A stretch of DNA of 46,634 nucleotides from a virus. The stretch is from IMG/VR virus record IMGVR_UViG_3300010373_000064, positions 1-46,634 of that record; one strand, 5' to 3'. Within the stretch, counting starts at the first letter, position 1; each line of letters begins with the position of its first letter. A program made the position numbers and the translations under genes. Shown here in pieces: positions 3,552-42,236 of this stretch. The notes beneath the pieces are model-generated. The model saw nothing but the letters and a program-made list of their open reading frames with translations. It did no database searches and had not been told where the DNA came from.

Positions 3552-3754
3552 TTCATGCTCTCCCACAGCGCCAGCGCATCCTTGGGCATATGCTGCCTGC
3601 AATAATGCGAGTTGATGAGCCCGCCCGCCATGTAGCCTTCTGGAGGCTTGTGGTTCGAGCGCGTGACTGCGAAGATCGCCGGTGATGGGCAATCCTCGCA
3701 GGAGAAGTTCAGTCTCTGAACCGAGACGACTTCGTTTCCTCTATAGTCTGCCAT
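3548..3754 (-). CDS. Small putative zinc-binding protein
   Basis: A 68-residue protein with CEDCPS near residue 20 and HYCRQHM near residue 53, a CxxC...HxCxxH spacing typical of a small zinc ribbon or treble clef. The ATG overlaps the stop of the upstream gene by one base (TAATG). Function unknown. Confidence 0.65.
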   Translation of the reverse strand: MADYRGNEVVSVQRLNFSCEDCPSPAIFAVTRSNHKPPEGYMAGGLINSHYCRQHMPKDALALWESMK

Positions 3755-4095
3755 TATTCCCCTATCAAGTCGAGATTGACTTCATCCAGCAGATCGAGGT
3801 TGATCTCTGGACTCTTGATGACGCCGACGACTTGGACCATGCCGAGTTCTTCGGCTTGGCGGATAAGTTCTGCATCGTTACTGTGGTCGGCTTTAGTACG
3901 ATGCTGGTCCGGGTGCTCGATTGCGATGACTCCACGGCGGAAGAGGTTTAACGTGTTCTCCAACTTGCCGCCGACGTCGTTCCTCGAAACGGGAATAACT
4001 GCCCCGTTTTCGAGGTTGGCGTAATACAGACCACTGGTATGATCGTATGTGAAGTCGATACGTAGCCGGAAGCCGGTCTTTTTAGCCTTTCGCAT
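3754..4095 (-). CDS. Small protein with a tandem NLDLL/NLDLI C-terminal motif
   Basis: A 113-residue protein with a basic N-terminus (MRKAKKTGFRLRI) and a mixed alpha/beta body. The C-terminus carries EINLDLL and, directly after, VNLDLIGE. The same INLDLL ending occurs in two other small proteins of this arm (43810-44052 and 45478-45726). The motif resembles the sliding-clamp binding peptide (Q-L-S/D-L-F/L) with Asn in place of Gln. The start at 4095 overlaps the upstream gene by 14 nt. The body family is not recognised. Confidence 0.65.
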   Translation of the reverse strand: MRKAKKTGFRLRIDFTYDHTSGLYYANLENGAVIPVSRNDVGGKLENTLNLFRRGVIAIEHPDQHRTKADHSNDAELIRQAEELGMVQVVGVIKSPEINLDLLDEVNLDLIGE

Positions 4096-4849: not shown

Positions 4850-5068
4850 TCACCCGGCGACTTTGAGAAAGCGACCATCCGGCTGCTTCTCGTACTTCTG
4901 GCCGCAGCCAGTCCCAAGGTTTGGGGCGGCCCGGTGGTCTCGCCACGACTCTTCTGTCATGAGCGCCCAGGGTCCATGTCTGGTCCTGGCGTCATACAGA
5001 ACGTCCTTGACGGGAACACCGAAGTCGTCCTCGGCCGGTTGCCCGCACCAATAGACTTCGTTAGTCAC
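4850..5068 (-). CDS. Hypothetical protein, 72 aa; first gene after a strong leftward promoter
   Basis: GTG start at 5068 with GGAG seven bases upstream. The protein starts MTNEVYWCGQPAEDDFGVPV and contains two cysteines and many aromatic residues; it is not recognised. It is the first gene downstream of the TTGACA-17-TAAGCT promoter, so it may be expressed early. Confidence 0.6.
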   Translation of the reverse strand: MTNEVYWCGQPAEDDFGVPVKDVLYDARTRHGPWALMTEESWRDHRAAPNLGTGCGQKYEKQPDGRFLKVAG

Positions 5069-5100
5069 TGACTTATCTCCATTTCTTACTACGCTAACGC

Positions 5101-5112
5101 GGTAAGCTTACC
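5101..5112. promoter_or_regulatory. Perfect 12-bp palindrome overlapping the -10 box (candidate operator)
   Basis: GGTAAGCTTACC is a perfect palindrome that covers the -10 element of the leftward promoter, where a dimeric repressor would block RNA polymerase. The nearby small HTH protein is a candidate binder, by position only. Confidence 0.45.
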
Positions 5113-5133
5113 ATATTTCTTCCAGTATGTCAA
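5105..5133 (-). promoter_or_regulatory. Leftward sigma70-like promoter
   Basis: On the minus strand TTGACA (5133-5128) and TAAGCT (5110-5105) are separated by exactly 17 bases in an AT-rich stretch between two genes. Transcription would start near 5098 and give a ~30-nt leader before the GTG at 5068. Confidence 0.6.
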
Positions 5134-5165
5134 TCTATATTAATCTATCCATCTATTTAATTTGA

Positions 5166-5657
5166 CTATAAGAACGGGTTGTCTAGGTAGAACTGTCTCG
5201 TTTCTTCGTTATACCCGAAGACGCCATTGCCTGATCTAATCTCACTCACAAGATACGCGGCGACTTCTTGCGGGTCTCGGCCGATCTTAGTGGCGCATTC
5301 AGATACAGTGAACGGTGTCATGAGTTTATACCGTGCGCGGATGCTGCGGAGCATGTTACTTCTCTGAGCCCGCTTGCGCTCTGCGACTTTGCGCGGGTTG
5401 ACAGCCTCGACAGACTGTTTGACCAGCTTGTCAACCGCTGCCTCCAGCTCGGTCATCGCCTCGTCAATTTCCGCTGGCGCTACGCTGCCTTCGAGTCCAG
5501 CCAGCGGGTCATCCTCATCTGGCGTCTCGGCGGGATTTAGCTCCTCCAACCATTTGATGTAAGTGTCCTGGTCGGCGGGCGATGCAGTCTTGAATGCCTC
5601 GTTCAACTTATCCCTGTCGTTGTGGTAGAAGTCTTGGAACTGTTCGCGGGTGAGCAT
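5166..5657 (-). CDS. Putative DNA-binding protein, first gene of the leftward arm
   Basis: A 163-residue protein. ATG 5657 was chosen over the in-frame TTG at 5669 because GGAGG lies five bases upstream of the ATG. The N-terminal half is acidic and helical (EELNPAETPDEDDPLAGLEG). The C-terminal ~65 residues are basic, then FTVSECATKIGRDPQEVAAYLVSEIRSGNGVFGY, which looks like a winged-helix domain (helix, turn, recognition helix, wing). It lies next to the putative origin, so an origin-binding or regulatory role is possible. This is inference from fold-like pattern and position. Confidence 0.65.
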   Translation of the reverse strand: MLTREQFQDFYHNDRDKLNEAFKTASPADQDTYIKWLEELNPAETPDEDDPLAGLEGSVAPAEIDEAMTELEAAVDKLVKQSVEAVNPRKVAERKRAQRSNMLRSIRARYKLMTPFTVSECATKIGRDPQEVAAYLVSEIRSGNGVFGYNEETRQFYLDNPFL

Positions 5658-24564: not shown

Positions 24565-25238
24565 TGGCATTCTTTGCACCACTGATCGCCGCCGGGGCAG
24601 GCGCCCTGAGTTCAGCGGGCGCGGCGCTCGGAAGTATGTTCGCTGGAGGCGCGGCTGCGGCGGGTGCAGGGGGAGCGGCTGCGGCAGCATCCTCGAGCCT
24701 TGGCCTGGGCGCGCTGTCGACGGGACTCAGCACGGTCGGCGGAGTACTCGGCGCGGTTGGAACCTACCAGCAGGGAATGTTCCAGTCGAAAATCGCCACG
24801 TACAACGCGCAGTTGGCCGAACAAGGCAAGGAGGCTGCGCTAACTGCCGGCTCCAATGCCGAGTCGATCAAGAGGATGCAGACCGGGAAACTGGTTGGCG
24901 AAGAGGCGGCAGCCCAAGCGGCTGGAGGCGTGGACGTCGGCGGTGGTTCGGCGGAGCAAGTCCGCAATGCCACGAAAGTCTCCGGCGAGATGGACGCACT
25001 GAACATTCGTTACAACGCAGCGCGCTCTGCCTACGGCTACCAGCAAGAGGCGTTCTCCGATCTGCTCCAGGCACAATCTGCCAGGCAATCAGCCGTAAGC
25101 GGACTGGTCGGCGGCATCTTCAAGGCCGGTTCCTCGTTCATCTCAGGGGCCAGCAGCCTGACTGACAAATGGTTGCAGTACCAAATGTCCGGGGCGCTGC
25201 AAGTTCCTTCATCCGGTAGCTCGGAGGTGCCCTTCTGA
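24564..25238 (+). CDS. Internal virion protein (gp14-like)
   Basis: 224 residues with an Ala/Gly-rich hydrophobic N-terminus (residues 1-60), then helical segments (QSKIATYNAQLAEQGKEAALTAG, SIKRMQTGKLVGEEAAAQAAGGVDVGGGSAEQVR, NAARSAYGYQQEAF). This matches the T7 gp14-like proteins that line the ejected channel in the outer membrane. The gene overlaps both neighbours by a single base. Confidence 0.75.
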   Translation: MAFFAPLIAAGAGALSSAGAALGSMFAGGAAAAGAGGAAAAASSSLGLGALSTGLSTVGGVLGAVGTYQQGMFQSKIATYNAQLAEQGKEAALTAGSNAESIKRMQTGKLVGEEAAAQAAGGVDVGGGSAEQVRNATKVSGEMDALNIRYNAARSAYGYQQEAFSDLLQAQSARQSAVSGLVGGIFKAGSSFISGASSLTDKWLQYQMSGALQVPSSGSSEVPF

Positions 25239-27427
25239 TGGCCGCCGTTCCCGAAGGCGCAACGCTCCCCTCGGAGCAGCAACAGGTCGGTGGGGTTCCC
25301 TCGATCCACGCCAACAGTCCCGAGACGATGTTCTCGGCGCTGGGGGAAGGACTGCAGAGCCTTGGCCAGTCTACCGAGAAGTTCTCGGACGTTATGGCTC
25401 AGCACGCGATGCAAGTCGCCGCGCTGAACAACAAGGCATTGTCCGACCAAGCCTACACGTCATACCTCAACGACGCGGGCGCCCTGGAAGCCAAGTTCCA
25501 GATGGACAATAGGTCAGTCGATCCGGCCCAGGCGACCACCCGCTACCAGGACTACGTCGGCCAACTCGAGCAGCTGCGGCAACACTACCGCGGCACGCTA
25601 GGCAACATGATGGCTTCGAGCCTGTTCGATCAAGACTCCCGCAGAATGCAGGGGTACATGATTATGAACGGGAGCAAGACTATCGCCCAAGGAACCCACA
25701 CGTTCCGCGAGGCGGCGTTTAATGGGAGCCAAGCGACCCTGACTGCCCGGGCGGCTGCGAGTCAAGACCCGGCCGAGCAAGAGGAGATCAAGCAGCAGAT
25801 CGCCACCAGCGCGTATAACTGGGGTCGGTCCGAGGGCTTGCCGGAAGACGCGATCAAGGCAGATATCCTGCGTCGGACGTCTCAAGTCGATATGTCGATC
25901 ATCGACGGGATGATGAAGACTCAGCCGGAGAATGCCTGGACCTACTTCAAGGCTCACCGGAATGAGATGACTGTCGAGCACATCGGGGCGACCGAAGAGA
26001 AACTCGACCAAGCTTTGACTGTCCACGGCGGGTACGTGGCTGCGACTCAGGCGATGGCCGGGGTCGGAACTGCGACGGCAGCAGCGCCTGCAGCAATGGC
26101 CGGGAGTGCGGAACACGCTCTGCCCGAGGGAGCGCCGCACGGTGGGCTGACTCCGCACATGGCCGGCCTGGAAGCCGGGATCATGCAGGCATTTCCGGGC
26201 ACCCGCCCGACGAGTGAGGGACGGACGGCAGGCCAGAACGCGGCTGTGCATGGAGCGCAAGACTCTGCTCACATGGCAGGCAACGCGGTCGACTTCCATA
26301 TCCCCGCGGGTATGACTGGCCAGCAGTTTGCCGAGGCGATCAAGGAGAAGTTCCCGCAAGCCAACGTCCTGTACGAAGGGCCGGGCGCAGCTCACTCGAC
26401 TGCCCCGCACGTCCACGTTCAGTTGGGACGGCAAGGCATGGGCGGGAACGGATACCTGCCTGGAACGGCCGGCTCCCAACTCGATGCGATCCAGGGCAAT
26501 GCCCAGAACCTGTTCCGTGCGGCCGACCAAGCGGCAGACGCCTATGCCGCGAAGTACGGCCTCGATCCGATCATGGTCCGGTATCAGGCGGAGCAGAAGC
26601 TCCAGTCGGATATGAACAGGATGGAGTACCAGTTCCGGCAGCAAGAAGACTCGAGCAAGCAGAACATCCTGACCGCAATCTCCGCCGGTGGTCAGGATGG
26701 CGAGCCGATCGGAGATTTGCCAACTCTGTTCCGCCTGAACCCCGGGATGCAGGACGACTATAATAACCTGACCGGCTCGGATCGCCGGGCGGTGCAAGCC
26801 TACCTGCGTCAAGGGGCGAACACGCTGACGCCTGGAAGACAGCTCCAGTGGGAGCAAATCTCCGGGATGAACAGTCAGCAAGTCATGGCGCTGAACCCAC
26901 TTGATCCGAAGCTCGACCTGACTACCAGTCAGCGGACGCAACTGACTAACACCCAGCACCACCTCCGCGAGCAGGCTGCGCGGCAGCAGGAACACGACGC
27001 CCGGATTGCACCGATCACGAGTAACAAGATCATCCACCAAGCACTGGTCGACTCCGGGATCGTGGACTCCGACAACACTATTTCGGACGAGCAATCCTAT
27101 CAAGTGTTCATCGGTCGGATGCTCCAGGCGGAAGACAATTGGGCGGCGGCGCACCCGACTCACAAGGGTGCCATTCCTGACCAAGAACTCATCAACATGG
27201 CCCAGCCTATTCTGGCTCGCCGAGGCGTCCAAGCGCCGAACCAACTGTTCGGGATCAACATTCCGTTCACAGGGAATAAGGGCGAGACGCCTCCGGTCAT
27301 TCCGCCGGATCGGTACGAGTGGCTACGTCAGCAGTATATGAAGGCGTTCCCTGACGCCGGGGAACCGAGTGCCGAACAGATCGGGCGTGAGTACGAACAT
27401 CGTCGCGAGAGGGGGCTTGAGCGTTAA
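25238..27427 (+). CDS. Internal virion protein with an M15-like peptidase domain
   Basis: A 729-residue protein in the position of T7 gp15. Residues ~1-280 are helical. At ~310-395 lies a domain resembling a peptidoglycan D,D/L,D-peptidase of the M15 fold: SAHMAGNAVDFHIP gives the H-x6-D pair and HVHVQLG the second His. The remaining ~330 residues are helical. It may be an ejected virion protein that opens peptidoglycan for genome entry. The domain call is by motif only. Confidence 0.75.
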   Translation: MAAVPEGATLPSEQQQVGGVPSIHANSPETMFSALGEGLQSLGQSTEKFSDVMAQHAMQVAALNNKALSDQAYTSYLNDAGALEAKFQMDNRSVDPAQATTRYQDYVGQLEQLRQHYRGTLGNMMASSLFDQDSRRMQGYMIMNGSKTIAQGTHTFREAAFNGSQATLTARAAASQDPAEQEEIKQQIATSAYNWGRSEGLPEDAIKADILRRTSQVDMSIIDGMMKTQPENAWTYFKAHRNEMTVEHIGATEEKLDQALTVHGGYVAATQAMAGVGTATAAAPAAMAGSAEHALPEGAPHGGLTPHMAGLEAGIMQAFPGTRPTSEGRTAGQNAAVHGAQDSAHMAGNAVDFHIPAGMTGQQFAEAIKEKFPQANVLYEGPGAAHSTAPHVHVQLGRQGMGGNGYLPGTAGSQLDAIQGNAQNLFRAADQAADAYAAKYGLDPIMVRYQAEQKLQSDMNRMEYQFRQQEDSSKQNILTAISAGGQDGEPIGDLPTLFRLNPGMQDDYNNLTGSDRRAVQAYLRQGANTLTPGRQLQWEQISGMNSQQVMALNPLDPKLDLTTSQRTQLTNTQHHLREQAARQQEHDARIAPITSNKIIHQALVDSGIVDSDNTISDEQSYQVFIGRMLQAEDNWAAAHPTHKGAIPDQELINMAQPILARRGVQAPNQLFGINIPFTGNKGETPPVIPPDRYEWLRQQYMKAFPDAGEPSAEQIGREYEHRRERGLER

Positions 27428-32940: not shown

Positions 32941-33497
32941 CTTTCCCCGTTCAGACGCCTCAGCGCGTTTACATCGGTGACAACGTAACGACTGCGTTCG
33001 CCTTCAACTTCGAGGTGCCGACGCAGCCGGATAATACTGCACAGACCGGGATCGAAGTCTGGCTCATCACGCCCGGCTCTCCTACCACTGTGGTGGAGAA
33101 AGCCCTGACAACCGACTACACTCTGACCGGTGCGGGAGTCGAAGCTGGTGGGACCGTGACCATGCTGGTCGCGCCTCCAACCGGCTCGATCCTCGTTATC
33201 AAGCGGGCTGTCGATCTGGCTCAGGACACCACGTTCCCCAACCAGGGATGGCTGGCGGTCAACATCGAGTCGAGCTTCGACCTCCAGACTATGATGCTCC
33301 AGCAGGCAACGAATACCGCACTGGCCGACGTCGTCACAGTCGCCAGCCTGCCCAACGCCAACACGCAACCCTTCAAGAGAAGGTTCGTGACTGACGCCAC
33401 GCTCACCCTTACCGCCGGGGTGGGTACAGTCGTGGCTGGGGGCGGCACGCACGTAGTCCCGGTGCATTCGGACTGCGTGAATTGGAGGATCGGATGA
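32937..33497 (+). CDS. T7 gp17-like tail fibre N-terminal protein
   Basis: 186 residues starting MTFPVQTPQRVYIGDNVTTAFAFNFEVP, the T7 fibre N-terminal pattern that binds the tail. A strand-rich body follows (VEVWLITPG-like segment, VEKALTTDYTLTGAG, GSILVIKRAVDLAQDTTF, SSFDLQTMMLQQATN). It is far shorter than T7 gp17 (553 aa) and has no receptor-binding tip, so it is probably an adaptor onto which another fibre (possibly 15208-16611) docks. ATGA overlap with both neighbours. Confidence 0.8.
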   Translation: MTFPVQTPQRVYIGDNVTTAFAFNFEVPTQPDNTAQTGIEVWLITPGSPTTVVEKALTTDYTLTGAGVEAGGTVTMLVAPPTGSILVIKRAVDLAQDTTFPNQGWLAVNIESSFDLQTMMLQQATNTALADVVTVASLPNANTQPFKRRFVTDATLTLTAGVGTVVAGGGTHVVPVHSDCVNWRIG

Positions 33498-33931
33498 GCG
33501 ACCTTTTCCTTGACCCGCACCACAAGTTGGGTCAAGTCCATCCCGACTTGATCAAGGTGATGGAGGCAGCGGAACAAACTCCGCAGCCGTTTGAGATAGT
33601 CTACGGCATACGGTCGAAGCTGGGGGAAATGGATGCGGTGAGTACTCACCACAGCCAGACCCTCCACAGCCGGCATCTGAGTCAGGTGAAGGAAAACAAC
33701 TGGTCATGCGCAGTCGACGTGGCTGCCGTGATCGACGGCAAGCTGTCCTGGGCGCCCGGCAAGGAGGAAGAAGTCTTCGGCCAGATCGCCAAGCAAGTCC
33801 TGGCTGCGGCGGCCAAACTCAATATCCCTGTCCAGTGGGGCGGGGCTGCGATAGGCGCATGGGTCCCCGGCGTCCCCTCGCACTTTCACGACTGGGGGCA
33901 TTTCCAACTACCGTGGAAGGAGTATCCATGA
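33494..33931 (+). CDS. M15-type peptidase endolysin
   Basis: 145 residues; ATG 33494 has GGAGG five bases upstream. It has the layout of the L-alanyl-D-glutamate / VanX-like M15 peptidase endolysins: SRHLSQVKENNWSCAVDVAAV supplies the H-x-S...A-x-D pair and FHDWGHFQLP the last His. Note that six extra residues (QVKENN) interrupt the usual SRH-x4-AxD spacing. It would cut peptidoglycan peptides at the end of infection. Part of the lysis cassette with the holin and lipoprotein. Confidence 0.85.
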   Translation: MSDLFLDPHHKLGQVHPDLIKVMEAAEQTPQPFEIVYGIRSKLGEMDAVSTHHSQTLHSRHLSQVKENNWSCAVDVAAVIDGKLSWAPGKEEEVFGQIAKQVLAAAAKLNIPVQWGGAAIGAWVPGVPSHFHDWGHFQLPWKEYP

Positions 33932-34710: not shown

Positions 34711-35969
34711 CGCCCATGCTCGGCTCGGGGGACCGGCTTATAGGTCGGTCTCCCGGCTTTGCCTACGAGGTCAGCCACTTGGATCATGCGACTGTCAACC
34801 AGGTTCTTGAGGATATGCGAAGCGGCGTGCTGTGGCGCCCGCTGCACGATGAAGTGTGTAATTCGATACTCGTCGATGTTCCGCTTTTCCTTGGCGTAAG
34901 TAGTATAGACGAAGTTGAACGCCTCATCCAACACAGCTGCTCCTCCGTCTATTGAGTGAGTCATCGCCCGGAACACATCGGGCATTGCGACTTCCGTTTC
35001 GATTAGGAAGTCTTGAGCTTCCCTGAAATCTTCCATCCTCAACACCAGCTCGCTACTTCGGCTGGCGCTAAACACCATGCAGAGTTTGAGGAAGTGAATA
35101 TGCCTGCGGGGTAAGTAGTGTTCGAGCTTAGGGTGCTCGGGCACCGGGGCTAAGTCGAGGTCCAGCCATGCGCTGAACGTGCGGAGGAAGTCCGGCTCTA
35201 CCTGGAACGAACCGAAGCAGTCGAAGACCTTCTTCAAGTCATCGGTGAGCGCCAACTCCAACTCTTCATCCTTCTCATTCTCGTTGAACGGATTGATCCT
35301 TAACCGCTCCCCGTTATAGGCGATCATGAGTCGGCTGGCAAACCCTTCGGCCCAGGCAGTTTGCGGGAGAGTTCCCGACAACCATGCAGGTGTAGTGGCT
35401 GCGATGATACTCAGCTGAGGTGAACTAATCGCACGTTCCTCACCCTTATTGATACTGCGCTTCTTCTCACTGTAACGCACACAGTCGTAAAGGTGATTGA
35501 GCGTCGACATGAACTCCGTCTCGTACTGAGTAAGGAACGTACCAAATTCCTCAGAAGCGACTTGGAGGGAATGGAACCGAGTGAACGGTGTAAGCTCGGA
35601 AGGGCGAAGGATCGTCCGTTCTGACTCGAAGAGAGAGTCAGCCAGACCAGCCCGACTGATGCTTGTGGGAGCGACATGTAGTCCTGGAAGTTGAGTCCAG
35701 AAATGGTGAACCTCGCGAATAGTATCGGTCTTGCCAACGCCTGGTCCTCCTGTCAGTAGAGCATAGATGTTTGGGTAAAGCACACGCCTCCCTAGCTTGA
35801 GCCACACCTTGCGCTCAAGTGCCCCGGCTATTGTGACAACAGCGCCCCACTTGCGAAACAGGCGGGGCGACTGGTTTCCTTCGGTAAGAGCTAGGAACCC
35901 TTCAACCCACGAAGGAAACTTTCTTTGCCCGCTTCCGGTCGTCGTGCCCTGTGAATGGGACGAGGCCAT
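34707..35969 (-). CDS. DUF3987-like replicative ATPase/helicase domain protein
   Basis: 420 residues starting MASSHSQGTTTGSGQRKFPSWVEGFLALTEGNQ. The block WVEGFLALTEGNQSPRLFRKWGAVVTIAGALERKVW, LTGGPGVGKTDTIREVHHF (Walker A) and SIIAATTPAWLSGTLP, ERLRINPFNENEK resemble the DUF3987 ATPase of phage primase-helicase proteins, but no primase domain is attached. The start overlaps the polymerase gene by 68 nt, which is long for this genome; a later start is possible. Likely a replicative helicase or its loader. Confidence 0.75.
   Translation of the reverse strand: MASSHSQGTTTGSGQRKFPSWVEGFLALTEGNQSPRLFRKWGAVVTIAGALERKVWLKLGRRVLYPNIYALLTGGPGVGKTDTIREVHHFWTQLPGLHVAPTSISRAGLADSLFESERTILRPSELTPFTRFHSLQVASEEFGTFLTQYETEFMSTLNHLYDCVRYSEKKRSINKGEERAISSPQLSIIAATTPAWLSGTLPQTAWAEGFASRLMIAYNGERLRINPFNENEKDEELELALTDDLKKVFDCFGSFQVEPDFLRTFSAWLDLDLAPVPEHPKLEHYLPRRHIHFLKLCMVFSASRSSELVLRMEDFREAQDFLIETEVAMPDVFRAMTHSIDGGAAVLDEAFNFVYTTYAKEKRNIDEYRITHFIVQRAPQHAASHILKNLVDSRMIQVADLVGKAGRPTYKPVPRAEHGR
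34726..34755 (+). terminator. Possible terminator at the convergent gene ends
   Basis: CGGGGGACCG (34726-34735) pairs with CGGTCTCCCG (34746-34755) with one G-U wobble and a ten-base loop. It is followed by GCTTTGCC, so the U-tract is weak. It lies inside the end of the leftward ATPase gene, 16 bases past the last rightward stop. Confidence 0.4.
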
Positions 35970-37386
35970 CCTCGTTTACTACCTTTCCCGACTTGTCCTT
36001 TTGCTTGCCCCAGTTCCAGCCCACCTCAGCCTCGGTCGGGATGGTCATGGTCCTGCCGTTCATCAGCGGCACCTCGATTTCGAGGAGCTTCTGCACAGCG
36101 GGAACTACTTCGTCTTCCTTCTCTTCGTCGTACTGGATCACCACCGCATCGTGAACTTGAAGGAGAAGCTCACAGATTTGGGCACGCCAGACTGCGAGCA
36201 GCCCGGTGTTCAGGATGTCGGCCACAGCAGACTGAGGCTCGTAAGCGATCGCCGCGCGGACAGTCTCCTCGTCGTAACGCCTGCCGAAGAAGTACCGCTG
36301 GCGCCCCATGAAGGTGGTTATAAATCCTTGGTTGGCAACCCTTTGTCTAACGTGCCCATGCCACGAGGGAATGCCAGGGAAAGAAGCAAAGTAAAAGTGC
36401 TGAAAATTGGTGACAAGCGGGAGAGGGATGCGTACTTCCTTTGAAATGTGCGGTGGTTTTCCCATGTAATTGGAGGCATGCCCGAGCCGCTTAGCCGCAT
36501 CTCGATAGTCAAAGTCACGATAGAACTTTCGCTTGGCAAGACTCTTGTCATTCTTAGGGTCTCCAGTCCAGGGTAGATCAGGCCAAGTCATTCGGCAGAC
36601 GGCGGTATGTAAATCTCCACTTTCACAGAAGTCGAGGTAGCGCGGGTCCGCAAAAGTGTTCCATATAATCGCGCCAACTGCGCGGGACTCAGCCTGCTCA
36701 AGATCAATGTAAGCGAGCTTCTTTCCTGGGTCTGCGATGAAGATACTTCGCATTTCACCTGTAACGTTTTGCAGGTTCGTTCCAGAGCCAAAGCAACTCT
36801 CATAACTTGAGAGTCTTCCAGTGTCGGTTCCACCAATATTATAACTTGTGCGAATGCGACCATCGGCGTCGATCCCTGTCTTAAGGAACCCGAGTTTCTT
36901 CCGAACGTCCTGTAGAGCCAGGATGTGATTGCAGATAGGTTCGGCATAGAAGTTGCCTCTCAGCTTCTCCAACGCCTTTCGGTCGGTCGTGATCCTGCCG
37001 CGGTTCTTGACCGGAGGGAGTTTGAGTACGTCGTAGAGAAGGTGCTGCTTCTGTTGCCAGGAGCCTACGTTGATCGTCTCAACGCCCACGCCTTCTTGGA
37101 CGATGTAGTTGAATTGTTCTTCGAGGCGGATACGTTGGGCCTCGTAGAAGTCGTAGACTTCCTTTCGTTTCTGCTGGTCGACGCGCACGCCTCGACATTG
37201 CATTTCCAGGATGGGAGCCATGAGCGCCCGCTCGAAGTCATAGACGTGGCCGGTGACCTCGTTCAGCTGGGGCAGGAGTTCTTCTAGCACCTCCAGCGTT
37301 ACACAGGAGTCAAGCCCGTTATAGACCTGTTCAGACACAGCCGCAGAGTTTGGGTGCGGCTGGTCCGTCCTCCAAATGCTGACCAC
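35902..37386 (-). CDS. Family A DNA polymerase, polymerase domain (C-terminal part of a split enzyme)
   Basis: 494 residues from GTG 37386, which overlaps the previous stop by one base. It begins inside an exonuclease domain: YNGLDSCVTLEV (residues 22-33) is the Exo III motif (Y-x3-D). Polymerase motif A is LAYIDLEQAESRAVG (D228), motif B RDAAKRLGHASNYMG (R295, K299, Y307) and motif C LQVHDAVVIQY (H412-D413). In motif C the glutamate of HDE is alanine. It would work with the UDG/exonuclease protein encoded two genes upstream. Confidence 0.92.
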   Translation of the reverse strand: MVSIWRTDQPHPNSAAVSEQVYNGLDSCVTLEVLEELLPQLNEVTGHVYDFERALMAPILEMQCRGVRVDQQKRKEVYDFYEAQRIRLEEQFNYIVQEGVGVETINVGSWQQKQHLLYDVLKLPPVKNRGRITTDRKALEKLRGNFYAEPICNHILALQDVRKKLGFLKTGIDADGRIRTSYNIGGTDTGRLSSYESCFGSGTNLQNVTGEMRSIFIADPGKKLAYIDLEQAESRAVGAIIWNTFADPRYLDFCESGDLHTAVCRMTWPDLPWTGDPKNDKSLAKRKFYRDFDYRDAAKRLGHASNYMGKPPHISKEVRIPLPLVTNFQHFYFASFPGIPSWHGHVRQRVANQGFITTFMGRQRYFFGRRYDEETVRAAIAYEPQSAVADILNTGLLAVWRAQICELLLQVHDAVVIQYDEEKEDEVVPAVQKLLEIEVPLMNGRTMTIPTEAEVGWNWGKQKDKSGKVVNEDGLVPFTGHDDRKRAKKVSFVG

Positions 37387-37775
37387 TAGCGCCCTCCGGC
37401 CATGTGCTTTATCATCCAGGCAGCATGGCGGAAGTCATTGGCGCGGTAGACGTAGCCGAGCCACTGCCATGTTCCGTAGTCTTGATGCTCGCCGATGGTG
37501 ATGACCGGCTTGCCCTGGGCCATCGCGAACCCCGCCTCGAACAGTGCCCCGCGGAGCTTGTCGTCTCCTTCAGCGTACACTACGCAGAACTCTGCCTCCA
37601 TGATGTCGCGCAGGTTGCGGTTCCAGAACGCCTTGGCGTTAGCCGGCGAGTCTTCCACCGCGTTGACGATGCCTGTCCAAGACGAGGTGAACTCGATGCC
37701 TTGGAAGTACGACTGCTGCTGCTCGCGCTTCAGGCGGTCGGCGTGAACCAGCTTGCTTGCCCAATAGACTCTCAT
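37386..37775 (-). CDS. Nucleoside 2-deoxyribosyltransferase-like protein, inserted in the split polymerase
   Basis: 129 residues; ATG 37775 overlaps the upstream stop (ATGA). The pattern YWASKLVHAD, IEFTSSWTG, NLRDIMEAEFCVVYAEGDD then RGALFEAGFAMAQGKPVITIG matches the nucleoside 2-deoxyribosyltransferase fold; the Glu in ALFEAGFA is in the catalytic position. The product could recycle nucleosides or make a modified base. Its neighbours are the two halves of the DNA polymerase, with single-base or ATGA overlaps on both sides. Enzyme class is inferred from pattern. Confidence 0.75.
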   Translation of the reverse strand: MRVYWASKLVHADRLKREQQQSYFQGIEFTSSWTGIVNAVEDSPANAKAFWNRNLRDIMEAEFCVVYAEGDDKLRGALFEAGFAMAQGKPVITIGEHQDYGTWQWLGYVYRANDFRHAAWMIKHMAGGR

Positions 37776-38809
37776 TCTTCGTCTTCCCTTTTCTCTTGAT
37801 GCTTGCCTCGTGGACGCATAGGCTTCCACGCGATCTCGTTGGTGTAGATACTCCCCAAGAAGCCGAGAGACTTGGGGGACTCCGGGTGCATTGAATGATG
37901 CAGTAGCATGGTGTCGTGTGCTACGTTCGCAACTGGTATTCCGTGAGCCTGCCAGAGATATTGGACGTCATAGAGGATGTTCTGACCAACCTTCTCAGCA
38001 GGGAGTTGACAGACCTTTCGGACCCACTTCCAAGCACGCACTTCGTCATTCTTGTCTTTCCAGTAATGCGCGCCCGGAAAGCGATGGTCAAGGAATGGGA
38101 CGACAAGGACCCGGTCCTTGGAAGGTGCGAACGATATGCAAGTGACCTGACCAATCGCCGTTTCAACGTCCATCGCAATCCTGCGTGCTCCGACGAGGAA
38201 GCGGTCATAGAATATCTCCAGATCATCGAGGTCCGGGTCGGTCCAGACTTCCCGTAGCGGCCGGCGGAGTTCGGGGAACTCGCTCTCGCGTTTGGCCTTC
38301 ATCAGATCGAGGATGGCAACGTGCCGGTTCTCGTACTGGTGAAAGATGTTGGACGGGTGGTAAGTGGGAAGGACTTTCAGTGTTGGTAGAACAGTTGAAT
38401 ACGAGCAAGTACCTCTGATCTTGCCGATGGCTCCACTACCAAGCAGAGCCCACGAGGCCGTGTTGCCAAGTAGAACGGCAATGTTAGGACGGACGGATGC
38501 AAGCTCATCGTATAGTCGAGTAAGGTGCGAAGCATACTCGGCTTTGATATAGAGCCCCTTAACAAGAGGCTTCGATCCTTTGAGAACTGCTGGGTCTTTG
38601 AGTGGACCGCAGAGAGACTCAAGCTTATTGCCAACTGGTCGGAGGTTAAACACGTTGGTAAGGAAGCACTCGTCACGTGAAATACCAGCGTCTGCGAGTT
38701 GACGATTAAGCTCCTGGCCAGCAGCCCCGAGAAAGGGCTTCTTCGCCATTTCCTCAGCCTCACCATAGGCTTCTCCGATGAGAGCGATCTTATAGTTGGC
38801 TGAGGTCAA
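37772..38809 (-). CDS. Fusion of uracil-DNA glycosylase and 3'-5' exonuclease (N-terminal part of a split polymerase)
   Basis: 345 residues from TTG 38809 (GGAG seven bases upstream). Residues 1-170 are a family 4/5-like uracil-DNA glycosylase: IGEAYGEAEEMAKKPFLGAAGQ (12-31) and TYHPSNIF (149-156). Residues 190-325 are a DnaQ-like exonuclease with Exo I DVETA (214-218) and Exo II GQNILYDVQYL (275-285), ending before Exo III. The missing Exo III motif is at the N-terminus of the polymerase protein. Together they would read UDG, proofreading and polymerase, probably reassembling in trans. Confidence 0.9.
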   Translation of the reverse strand: MTSANYKIALIGEAYGEAEEMAKKPFLGAAGQELNRQLADAGISRDECFLTNVFNLRPVGNKLESLCGPLKDPAVLKGSKPLVKGLYIKAEYASHLTRLYDELASVRPNIAVLLGNTASWALLGSGAIGKIRGTCSYSTVLPTLKVLPTYHPSNIFHQYENRHVAILDLMKAKRESEFPELRRPLREVWTDPDLDDLEIFYDRFLVGARRIAMDVETAIGQVTCISFAPSKDRVLVVPFLDHRFPGAHYWKDKNDEVRAWKWVRKVCQLPAEKVGQNILYDVQYLWQAHGIPVANVAHDTMLLHHSMHPESPKSLGFLGSIYTNEIAWKPMRPRGKHQEKREDEE

Positions 38810-40076
38810 CGCCCTTCTCCCAGGCTTCCTGCGCTTGCTTCGCGTATTCCTCGTTCAGTTCAAGGCCCAGAACAGAACCTGCTCCGCAATCACGAGCAGC
38901 CCGCAGAGCACTGGCACTACCACAAGTAGGATCAAGCATCCTAGTGTTGGCGTCGACGAACATGCGGAAGAAGTGGCCGAGCGTCTCAGTGTTCTTCTCC
39001 GACATATGGTCGGCTTCCCGGTTGATCTTACTGGTGTGCCAGTTGGCGACTGCAGATATAATCTTACGGGGGTTCTCCTTCGGCCACGAGCAGAAAAAAG
39101 CAGTCTCATACGCGCGCCTCGGGTTCATGTTCGGGTTGGGAATGATGCCGGCAGTCTTGGCCCAAATGAGTGGGAACGGGTCAACCCACAGCCATGTGCG
39201 GAGCCAGTCGAGGGTCTCCTGATAGTAGTGCATGGAGAACCAGAACATCAGATGGGCACTCTCTCCCATAAGCCGATGCCTATTCTGATACAGACTATTA
39301 CACAGAGCCAAGTGATCGTCGCGAGTATCAGAATATCCACCAAGGGACTTCGCCGCGTATTGTTTATGCGGAGAGCCCACGTTACTATCAATGCCATAAG
39401 GGAAATCGCAATGGACAAAGTTAAACGGGACACCGCGATACTCCTTCGCCCAAGTGTGGAAGTCTGCCACGAGGATGGGTGAAGCTGCCTTCTTCTTCTC
39501 GGAGATACTTGGAGCTTCGAGCGCCAGGAGAGCGGCTGCCTGATCGGCGGCCTTCCTTTCCGTCTGACGCTTCACGATCCCGCGGGCAGTCGAGAACGTG
39601 GGGAGGTTGGCGATCTTCTCGTTGCCCTTGTGCAGCTCCTCGGCCACAGCTAAGAGCTTACTGACGTTGGCTTGAGTCATGCCGATGGCTTGGGCAGTAT
39701 CTTGCTGCCGCCATTCCGGCTTCTCCTTCACGTGCATCACGTGGTAGCGGCGGAGGGCATCGCACTGGTCCTGCCATGACAGGTCCTTGCGCTTGACGTT
39801 CTCCTCGATTTCGATTTCCAGTTTCTGGAACTCGTCCAGGTCCTCGTAGAACCGGACTTCAATGTCTTCCCAGCCTAGGTGGTGCGCGGCTAGGTAGCGC
39901 GTCTCCCCGGCGACTAGCTGGTGCTGGTTGAGGATGGTGTCCCGGTTAACAGTGATCGGATTGATCTGGCCGATCCGGGCCATCGACTCCGCCTTCTCCT
40001 CGATGTCCGCTTCAGTGATCTCTTTGCGGATACGGTCCGAGCGGTTGACTACGATCTGATCGAGAGGTAGGCGCAT
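38790..40076 (-). CDS. ParB-like domain fused to a DNA methyltransferase
   Basis: 428 residues from ATG 40076 (GGGGA upstream; an in-frame GTG at 40148 would add 24 residues). The N-terminus MRLPLDQIVVNRSDRIRKEI then LVAGETRYLAAHHLG is ParB-like; LAQAIGMTQANVSK-like sequence (residues ~115-130) is a helix-turn-helix. The C-terminal half is a methyltransferase: FVHCDFPYGID (motif IV; DPPY-like) precedes LDPTCGSASALRAARDCGAGSVLGLELN (motif I), the beta-type order. Such fusions modify phage DNA, perhaps to resist restriction. It overlaps the UDG gene by 20 nt. Confidence 0.85.
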   Translation of the reverse strand: MRLPLDQIVVNRSDRIRKEITEADIEEKAESMARIGQINPITVNRDTILNQHQLVAGETRYLAAHHLGWEDIEVRFYEDLDEFQKLEIEIEENVKRKDLSWQDQCDALRRYHVMHVKEKPEWRQQDTAQAIGMTQANVSKLLAVAEELHKGNEKIANLPTFSTARGIVKRQTERKAADQAAALLALEAPSISEKKKAASPILVADFHTWAKEYRGVPFNFVHCDFPYGIDSNVGSPHKQYAAKSLGGYSDTRDDHLALCNSLYQNRHRLMGESAHLMFWFSMHYYQETLDWLRTWLWVDPFPLIWAKTAGIIPNPNMNPRRAYETAFFCSWPKENPRKIISAVANWHTSKINREADHMSEKNTETLGHFFRMFVDANTRMLDPTCGSASALRAARDCGAGSVLGLELNEEYAKQAQEAWEKGVDLSQL

Positions 40077-40223
40077 GGTGTTCCCCGACTTGAAAATGAG
40101 AGGCCGAGTTCCACGGCCCTGCCGGTTTAGCGCCGGCTCACTATCCACGTTCTCTATCTATCCTGTTGGGTTCTGTCTAACAGACCGAGTCCTGTTCTCG
40201 GCGTAGGACGGCGCCCATCATGG

Positions 40224-41083: not shown

Positions 41084-41947
41084 CTACTTCCTGTTGATGG
41101 CCTCGAAGAACGTAGCGAGGCCGGTTTCAATAGGAAGCTTATCCAGCCCCGCGAACGGGACAGGATTCTTGAGGTCCACTAACGAAGTTGACTTCGTGTG
41201 GATCATTCGCTTGCCGCCCGAGTCATCCATGAGGAGACACGAGTTGAAATGGGCGGCGATGACTTCGTTGAGCGCGGAGCCGACGGAGCGGGGAAAGCCT
41301 TTGCCGAGTTCCAACTGCTCGTGCATAGTCATGGCGTTCCGGTCGTCGGCGTTGCGCGGCCGCTTCGTGTAGGAGAGGTGAGCCAAGACCAGGACGTTGA
41401 CCGCGAAGTCCTTGGAGCAGAGCAGAGCGAGGAGGTTCATCACCAACTGCTGGGCTGCGTGGTAGTCAGCTTGCGGTTCACGCCCGGCCGGGTTCATCGC
41501 CTGGACGTAGCGGAAGGCGGCGGCTGATGCGGTGGTCAGACTGTCGATAACGACCACGGTGTCCATGCCGAGTTTACCGGGGTCGCCGAGGTCTTTACCC
41601 TCGGGGTCGTTCCACTTCGTGAGCTGCTTCATCGCCTTGATATAGGCGGTTGGAGTCCCGTCGTTGTTCGGCATGATCTTGAGACCCTTACCGACCATCA
41701 TCGCAGGGGTATCTGTCCCCTTCAGCTTGTCAGTGAAAGTCTGGAACTCCACGTTCCCGATATTCTCGGGACACTCGTGCCGAACGTAGGCAATGAGAGA
41801 CGTCAAGAGATTGTCGAAGTCGTAGATCAGCAGGCGGTAGCCAGCCTTCACCAGACTTGTGAGTGACCCGGTCTTGCCTGAACCGGGATCACCCATCAAC
41901 AGTCCCTTGACGAGTTGTGGACCTTCGTGCTCTTCAAGGCTGGGCAT
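41084..41947 (-). CDS. Sak4-like RecA ATPase (AAA_24)
   Basis: 287 residues. Walker A is LLMGDPGSGKTGSLTSL near residue 17; RLLIYDFDNLL near residue 38 and VVVIDSLTTASAAAF near residue 125 (Walker B) follow; VNVLVLAHLSYTKRP lies in the RecA-like core. This is the AAA_24 / Sak4 recombinase pattern, a short RecA-like ATPase that drives phage strand annealing or exchange. ATG 41947 overlaps the GroES gene by 14 nt. Confidence 0.85.
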   Translation of the reverse strand: MPSLEEHEGPQLVKGLLMGDPGSGKTGSLTSLVKAGYRLLIYDFDNLLTSLIAYVRHECPENIGNVEFQTFTDKLKGTDTPAMMVGKGLKIMPNNDGTPTAYIKAMKQLTKWNDPEGKDLGDPGKLGMDTVVVIDSLTTASAAAFRYVQAMNPAGREPQADYHAAQQLVMNLLALLCSKDFAVNVLVLAHLSYTKRPRNADDRNAMTMHEQLELGKGFPRSVGSALNEVIAAHFNSCLLMDDSGGKRMIHTKSTSLVDLKNPVPFAGLDKLPIETGLATFFEAINRK

Positions 41948-42236
41948 CGACCACCCTCCCGAGCACGTCCTCTTCGGTGACGAGGGTGAGCTTCTCCGAG
42001 TCCATGCCGATGTTGGACCCTGCGGTGCGGAGAAAGATCACCTTGTCGCCGACCTTGGACTGCGGTGGCCAGAGCACTCCGTTGAAGTCGCGGCGACCGG
42101 GGCCGACGGCGAGGACTTCAGCGACGTAAGTTTGCTTGTTGGCGATGCCGTCGGGAAGCATGATGCCTCCCTCGGTGCGGGTGGAGTCGGCTAGTCTTTT
42201 GACTAGCAAACGGTTCTGATAGGGTTCGACGTTCAT
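41934..42236 (-). CDS. GroES-like co-chaperonin
   Basis: A 100-residue Cpn10 homologue, about the normal length. NVEPYQNRLLVKRLADSTRTEGGIMLPD holds the mobile loop with a GGIML motif that docks on GroEL; AEVLAVGPG and VGDKVIFLRTAGSNI are the conserved core strands. ATG overlaps the upstream stop (ATGA). It would redirect the host GroEL to phage proteins, as T4 gp31 and related phage co-chaperonins do. Its place among recombination genes is unusual. Confidence 0.9.
   Translation of the reverse strand: MNVEPYQNRLLVKRLADSTRTEGGIMLPDGIANKQTYVAEVLAVGPGRRDFNGVLWPPQSKVGDKVIFLRTAGSNIGMDSEKLTLVTEEDVLGRVVDAQP

Follow-up and report, generated by a model that had tools for sequence, protein, structure and literature searches.

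The DNA polymerase gene in IMG/VR virus record IMGVR_UViG_3300010373_000064 is divided into two open reading frames (ORFs). The cut falls inside the 3'-5' exonuclease domain, and a third gene, resembling a nucleoside 2-deoxyribosyltransferase (NDT), lies between the pieces. The window analysed here is this whole record (46,634 nucleotides, positions 1 to 46,634). A reading made earlier from the sequence alone, hereafter the sequence-only reading, set the arrangement apart from the known UDG-polymerase fusions of phages. We find that the split is old and widely shared, not peculiar to this phage. We counted 128 loci whose polymerase is broken at the identical residue; this count takes in near-identical pairs, and the 80 non-redundant loci left after clustering are the safer number. 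Across this clade the catalytic residues of the exonuclease are retained on both pieces, and the proofreading site is almost certainly rebuilt in trans from two chains, as judged from patterns of sequence conservation.

A polymerase gene in two pieces

Piece 1 of the polymerase (37772..38809, minus strand, as are all the polymerase and NDT-like features given here) is a protein of 345 amino acids with a TTG start. It combines a uracil-DNA glycosylase (UDG) domain with the part of the exonuclease that holds motifs Exo I and Exo II. The piece matches the Pfam UDG family PF03167 at 2.8e-19 and 70 bits (cut-off 24.3), over residues 4-161 (38327..38800), and its structural matches are type-4 UDG structures. 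It falls short of TIGR00758, the curated model of UDG family 4 (78.9 bits against a cut-off of 125.3), and the domain is best described as apparently family-4-like. Exo I (D214-x-E216, within DVET) lies at 38162..38170 and Exo II (NILYDVQ, with D281) at 37961..37981. The protein ends in the tail KREDEE (37775..37792), the codons of which double as the ribosome-binding region of the next gene, followed by a TGA stop at 37774-37772.

Piece 2 (35902..37386) is a protein of 494 amino acids with a GTG start, made up of a leader of about 20 residues, the Exo III helix and the polymerase domain. It matches PF00476 at 6.3e-35, and its matched structures are Klenow and Taq. The alignment with Klenow begins at residue 21, and Exo III (Y22-N-G-L-D26; 37309..37323) is the counterpart of Klenow Tyr497/Asp501. 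The polymerase catalytic aspartates are D228 (in DLEQAE; 36703..36705) and D413 (in VHDA).

Because both pieces match a single PHROG, phrog_17 (DNA polymerase), with piece 1 covering model positions 551-788 and piece 2 positions 809-1244, they are two parts of one gene. The sequence-only reading had divided the polymerase in just this way, with UDG and exonuclease in the first protein and the end of the exonuclease plus the polymerase in the second; the shared model bears this out. Its placement of Exo I and II in one protein and Exo III in the other likewise agrees with the sequence and with the Klenow alignment through the break. Family A polymerases are expected to be single polypeptides, and here there are two ORFs with a gene between them. 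The window polymerase is very probably a replicative family A enzyme encoded by a UDG-Exo-Pol gene in pieces.

Scanning viral_contigs with the polymerase piece returned 62 loci; wherever one of these carries both parts, the UDG-exonuclease has an ORF of its own upstream. A second scan with a diverse alignment added more loci, few of which depart from the same model position of the split. Piece 1 always stops 10-15 residues past a conserved WK, and piece 2 always starts about 20-25 residues ahead of Y(N/C)xxD, the Exo III motif. The isolated Caulobacter phage Kuura has the split, annotated as a hypothetical protein (part one) and a DNA polymerase (part two); the searched passages of the Kuura paper speak only of "a DNA polymerase". 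The nearest relative of the window, locus L001, has a polymerase 84% identical to the window's. A prophage or host search with the polymerase returned no match.

When a tree was built from the polymerase domain, a branch with SH-aLRT support of 100 separated the 80 non-redundant split loci from the remaining sequences. This support held under two models, with two outgroup sets, and with and without long-branch outgroups. Relatives outside the clade have a single ORF (MW202489, Microcystis phage Mel-JY34, vir526, a Desulfofustis phage and a group of IMG/VR contigs) and carry a short loop at the position of the break, for example YWKDEGKDWDAKTGEDQLWFYNCKDA. Intact UDG-Exo-Pol homologues, whose alignment across the break the sequence-only reading had proposed as a check, are available and align with Klenow through it. 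Given that an unsplit homologue aligns with the E. coli Klenow fragment straight across the break, the cut can be placed in the loop that leads into the Exo III helix. Given also that the unsplit state is general outside the clade, the split is most simply read as having arisen once.

Conservation of the active-site residues is essentially complete. Among the non-redundant split loci, the D and E of Exo I are kept in 79/79 aligned, the D of Exo II in 80/80, and the Y and D of Exo III in 80/80. The polymerase residues D228 (80/80) and D413 (79/79 aligned) are equally constant, and the rest of the polymerase drops to about 40% identity between branches. Distances computed for the exonuclease and the polymerase are correlated (r = 0.80). 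Together, the invariance of the Exo residues and the correlated distances would be hard to explain unless two chains build one exonuclease site. The sequence-only reading had left two possibilities, that the site is rebuilt in trans or that it is lost; the first is supported and the second disfavoured.

The gap as a slot and its cargo

The distance between the pieces varies from -4 to 2355 nt across the split loci (median 527), and 12 loci have gaps of 5 nt or less, that is, no insert. On the tree, the break persisted through at least 22 changes in the class of gap content; ORF calls are uncertain in a few gaps. Near kin of the window illustrate this turnover. The gap of L001 is 52 nt long, L004-L006 have ATGA overlaps without an insert, L002 has one small ORF in its gap, and L011 has that same small ORF together with an HNH gene. 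Elsewhere the contents include HNH genes, methyltransferases, DUF6378 and MazG-like genes, and genes of unknown kind. The longest gap (2.3 kb; L047:1961-4268) holds YspA-type SLOG, MazG-like, YfbR-like HD and DUF6378 genes. We propose that the gap is a slot where genes enter, turn over and leave without harm to the polymerase.

In the window, the slot is occupied by the NDT-like gene (37386..37775), which encodes 129 amino acids; Glu80 takes the place of the nucleophile of NDT enzymes. It starts at the ATG within the ATGA that ends piece 1 (37775) and stops with TAG at 37386, a base shared with the GTG start of piece 2. A longer listed ORF, up to 37829, runs into the exonuclease gene; the gene proper is 37386-37775. 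Shine-Dalgarno-like sequences stand at both joins (AGGGA and GGAGG), the one for piece 2 (GGAGGG, 37392..37397) lying within the NDT-like gene. The sequence-only reading, which described a gene filling the break with ATGA and one-base overlaps, was exact on this point.

The encoded protein can be placed in the NDT superfamily (PF05014; DNPH1, MilB; DUF7768, DUF1937, DUF4406) by its match to PF05014, which scores 29.4 bits where the cut-off is 28.8. The identity appears real but marginal, with weak full-length similarity. The protein keeps the catalytic-type Glu of the G-x-x-x-E-x-G region; E80 is invariant in 7 relatives, in which LRGALxEAG is also kept. Its closest relative (44% identity) belongs to Rhizobium phage RHph_X2_30, where it lies near thymidylate synthase and DUF550 genes (L065:4992-6860). 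Close relatives of the gene were found in no polymerase gap when viral_contigs, genomes and plasmids were searched for them; the sequence-only reading had suggested looking for the same insertion in other phages. At third codon positions the GC content (GC3) of the gene is 0.815, and those of its two polymerase-piece neighbours are 0.587 and 0.640. Because its composition differs and its family is absent from other gaps, we regard the gene as a recent occupant of an old slot. A role for its product in the nucleotide pool may be predicted, and a functional link to the polymerase may be suggested.

Genes of the NDT superfamily occupy the slot in about a third of loci. DUF7768 (PF24963) is found in 31 distinct gaps, DUF1937 in 7, and PF05014 in the window alone. 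The remark in the sequence-only reading that a base-exchange type of gene in the break is noteworthy has therefore gained weight, as other NDT-fold families occur in 38 further loci. A structural model of a DUF7768 gap protein (pLDDT 92) has NDT, DNPH1 and MilB as its top PDB matches, with TM scores of 0.6-0.7; on this basis we assign these proteins a predicted NDT fold. They lack the nucleophile Glu and have GMxxGI instead of the Glu motif. No significant match emerged when the profiles of the three small gap families were compared with one another, so the link in fold between them rests on the DUF7768 model and on one protein, in the L061 record, that matches PF24963, PF05014 and PF09152.

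Most of these genes lie in the slot. Of 25 NDT-superfamily genes found in long records from the split clade, 20 are in the gap, although it makes up about 1% of the genome. The others belong to L004 and L061, whose gaps are empty, to L110, where the gene is just upstream of the exonuclease piece, and to L132 and L137. The NDT-superfamily gene of L058 was placed across contig ends.

How should this recurrence be understood? The slot may be neutral, with NDT-fold genes common in it by inheritance of an early occupant, DUF7768, and not through cooperation with the polymerase; we give this an even chance. It would account for the correlation of DUF7768 distances with polymerase distances (Mantel r = 0.69, reached in 0/2000 permutations), which indicates that DUF7768 was probably an early occupant, and for the many other gene types found in the gap. 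It sits less well with the share of the superfamily found in so small a part of the genome, and with the tree, which calls for at least three separate entries of DUF1937 into the slot and one of PF05014. Nor does it predict the position of a DUF1937-like gene in unsplit Microcystis phage Mel-JY34, about 0.3 kb upstream of the intact polymerase gene; in two other unsplit relatives a DUF1937-like gene lies far from the polymerase. The stronger alternative, that NDT-fold gap proteins are functional partners of the split replicase, kept through replacement by unrelated subfamilies, seems to us improbable on present evidence. The same doubt attaches to specific roles that such partners might have, such as removing or sensing abnormal deoxynucleoside monophosphates at the fork beside a UDG-bearing polymerase, or bridging the two pieces. 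Taken broadly, a functional tie such as nucleotide-pool cleaning is plausible, and early-occupant inheritance plus chance is about as likely. No defence-system annotation of the NDT-like proteins was found, and DUF7768 was not found in phage papers, in a literature search that was incomplete.

The proofreading site and the origin of the break

That two chains may share one active site invites the opposite suggestion, that proofreading was lost and piece 1 was retained for its UDG alone, with the Exo residues as relics. The cut does part Exo III from Exo I and II, and across the clade the UDG motifs GExxG..E and HP are mostly kept. However, these motifs are less conserved than the Exo motifs, and it is the catalytic Exo residues, on both pieces, that are invariant in 80 lineages otherwise diverged to about 35-45% identity. 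We consider loss of proofreading quite unlikely, and assembly of a heterodimer that proofreads in trans is the reading that this conservation favours.

The tail of piece 1 may bear on how such an assembly is made. Its pattern in the clade is K-(R/K/A)-(D/E)-(E/D)-stop, with Lys at -4 in 109/128 loci and D/E at -2 in 116/128. The codons AGA and AGG account for 59% of Arg codons in the tail and 25% in the body (Fisher p = 5e-9), a bias that supplies a Shine-Dalgarno sequence for the next gene. Selection at the level of the protein is also likely, because a marine subgroup retains a K-A-D-E tail with codons that do not make this sequence.

An intron, a split intein or frameshifting could in principle restore a single protein. 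Some phage polymerase genes are known to carry introns or split inteins that come with homing endonucleases (PMC6892783, PMC10580990), among them MIJ3 PolB with its split intein (PMC6892783). Against such restoration here, neither the window nor L089, an unsplit-clade locus described below, has an Rfam intron match. Piece 1 ends about 10-15 residues past the aligned homology and piece 2 adds about 20, too short for intein halves, and the gaps, from overlap to more than 2 kb, hold different complete genes. We think this very unlikely. The suggestion, made in the sequence-only reading, that the NDT-like gene itself entered an intact polymerase gene and broke it is refuted by the relatives with empty gaps. 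The tight overlaps at its ends and its different base composition would fit such an event, but kin of the window have the break without the gene (the near-empty gap of L001 and the empty gaps of L004-L006, among the 12 insert-free loci), the break is common to the whole clade, and the family of the gene is in no other gap. An assembly or sequencing artefact, which a metagenomic virus record might raise, is refuted by the recurrence of the break, not least in an isolated and sequenced phage.

What, then, made the cut? Traces of homing endonucleases are present in the clade and beyond it, and HNH-like genes occur in 11 distinct gaps (one duplicate record removed). In L011, an HNH gene (PF13392) follows an exonuclease tail with changed codons, and downstream of the HNH gene stands an older exonuclease tail that differs from the L002 tail by one mismatch. 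Such a tail duplication is what homing with coconversion would be expected to leave at the 3' end of the exonuclease gene; sought in all gaps, it was found in L011 only. In L089, within the unsplit clade, an ORF resembling a homing endonuclease gene (L089:4543-4980) cuts UDG-Exo-Pol in the same loop, and is an independent split at that position.

Further breaks were seen in other polymerases. In L044 (4418-6022) an HNH/AP2 gene (4878-5420), overlapping its neighbours at both ends, interrupts the UDG-exonuclease piece and leaves the polymerase in three pieces. Three pieces are also found in L147 (2944-4436), where an ORF of 121 amino acids (3677-4042), DNA-binding-like by sequence, parts UDG from exonuclease. 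Vibrio phage VS-ABTNL-3 (L070:3956-7090) has its palm split, with a 184-amino-acid ORF lacking a Pfam match in the break, and MW202554 (L068:1727-4364) has a polymerase split after Exo III, a further independent break.

A homing-endonuclease origin is the best explanation of the ancestral break, as inferred from these later events. In an ancestor of a large podovirus-like phage group, the UDG-Exo-Pol gene would have been cut in the loop that joins the exonuclease core (Exo I and II) to the Exo III helix, most likely through insertion of a homing endonuclease gene of the free-standing kind. Both pieces would then have become separate, translationally coupled genes, and in the resulting heterodimer the Exo III helix at the N-terminus of piece 2 (Tyr22, Asp26) would complete the exonuclease fold of piece 1. 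The gap would have become a cargo slot, of which the present occupant in the window phage would be the recently acquired NDT-like gene.

Several observations weigh against this account. The break in the window holds no homing endonuclease, and the ancestral inserter is not preserved in the clade, so that later events are the guide to its identity. Neither Pfam nor NCBIfam matches the L089 ORF, which is classed by its sequence alone. Piece 1 matches the general exonuclease model PF01612 weakly (E = 0.05). The conserved tail could act in translation coupling instead of assembly. The evidence of the analysis as a whole is sequence and one predicted structure.

Other genes of the window may be noted. 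Directly upstream of the polymerase, a ParB N-terminal domain is fused to an N6/N4 DNA methylase (38790-40148), and methylase genes of similar kind precede the polymerase in relatives. A GroES-like co-chaperonin (41934-42236) matches Cpn10 at 3.9e-20, and two peptidase M15 or endolysin-like proteins, one of 729 amino acids, are encoded at 25238-27427 and 33482-33931.

Known split polymerases and what this one adds

The closest parallels are the genes in pieces of T4-like phages (Aeh1 nrdA/mobE; gp43A/43B of Aeromonas phages 25 and 44RR; topoisomerase gene 60/mobA; PMC2988022). There too an essential gene is cut and two translated pieces reassemble, homing endonucleases lie in or near the break, and gp43 is also a DNA polymerase. 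The split NrdA of Aeh1 keeps full function, and the gp43A and gp43B pieces of phage 25 purify together, with polymerase activity (PMC2988022); these precedents indicate that separated pieces of this kind can work. The differences are that gp43 belongs to family B, whereas the polymerase described here is family A with a fused UDG and is cut between Exo II and Exo III, and that here the break is fixed in one large clade, with the gap serving as a slot for varied, often NDT-fold, cargo.

The PolA of OM43 phages MEP401 and MEP402 (PMC10580990) is likewise a family A enzyme in two ORFs with a small ORF between, and this type of split is present in most related marine virus genomes (PMC10580990). 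In that case, however, the cut lies within the polymerase domain (the exonuclease and the N-terminal part of the polymerase are both in ORF13), and the insert is unknown, the authors having thought of an intron. UDG-PolA fusions in phages (phrog_17; Pseudomonas phage PaBG, PMC7412058) join UDG to polymerase, a plan shared by the unsplit relatives, MW202489 and Mel-JY34 among them. These PaBG-type fusions are single polypeptides, unlike the split clade. Polymerase splits by or with homing endonucleases and UDG-PolA fusions were thus already known. The clade-wide split through the proofreading site, with its slot, appears new; no description of either was found in a literature search that was incomplete.

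The recurrent NDT-fold cargo gives DUF7768 a predicted fold and a genomic setting. Looking across the loci, a path is documented from an unsplit clade, through a fresh insertion in the same loop (L089) and a coconversion footprint (L011), to an empty slot and then a filled one. This path seems to have produced a naturally occurring and long-lasting proofreading polymerase of two chains, with an exonuclease site that would be shared between the chains. As such, it offers a system for studying the assembly of a split replicase, and possible regulation of proofreading by subunit association.

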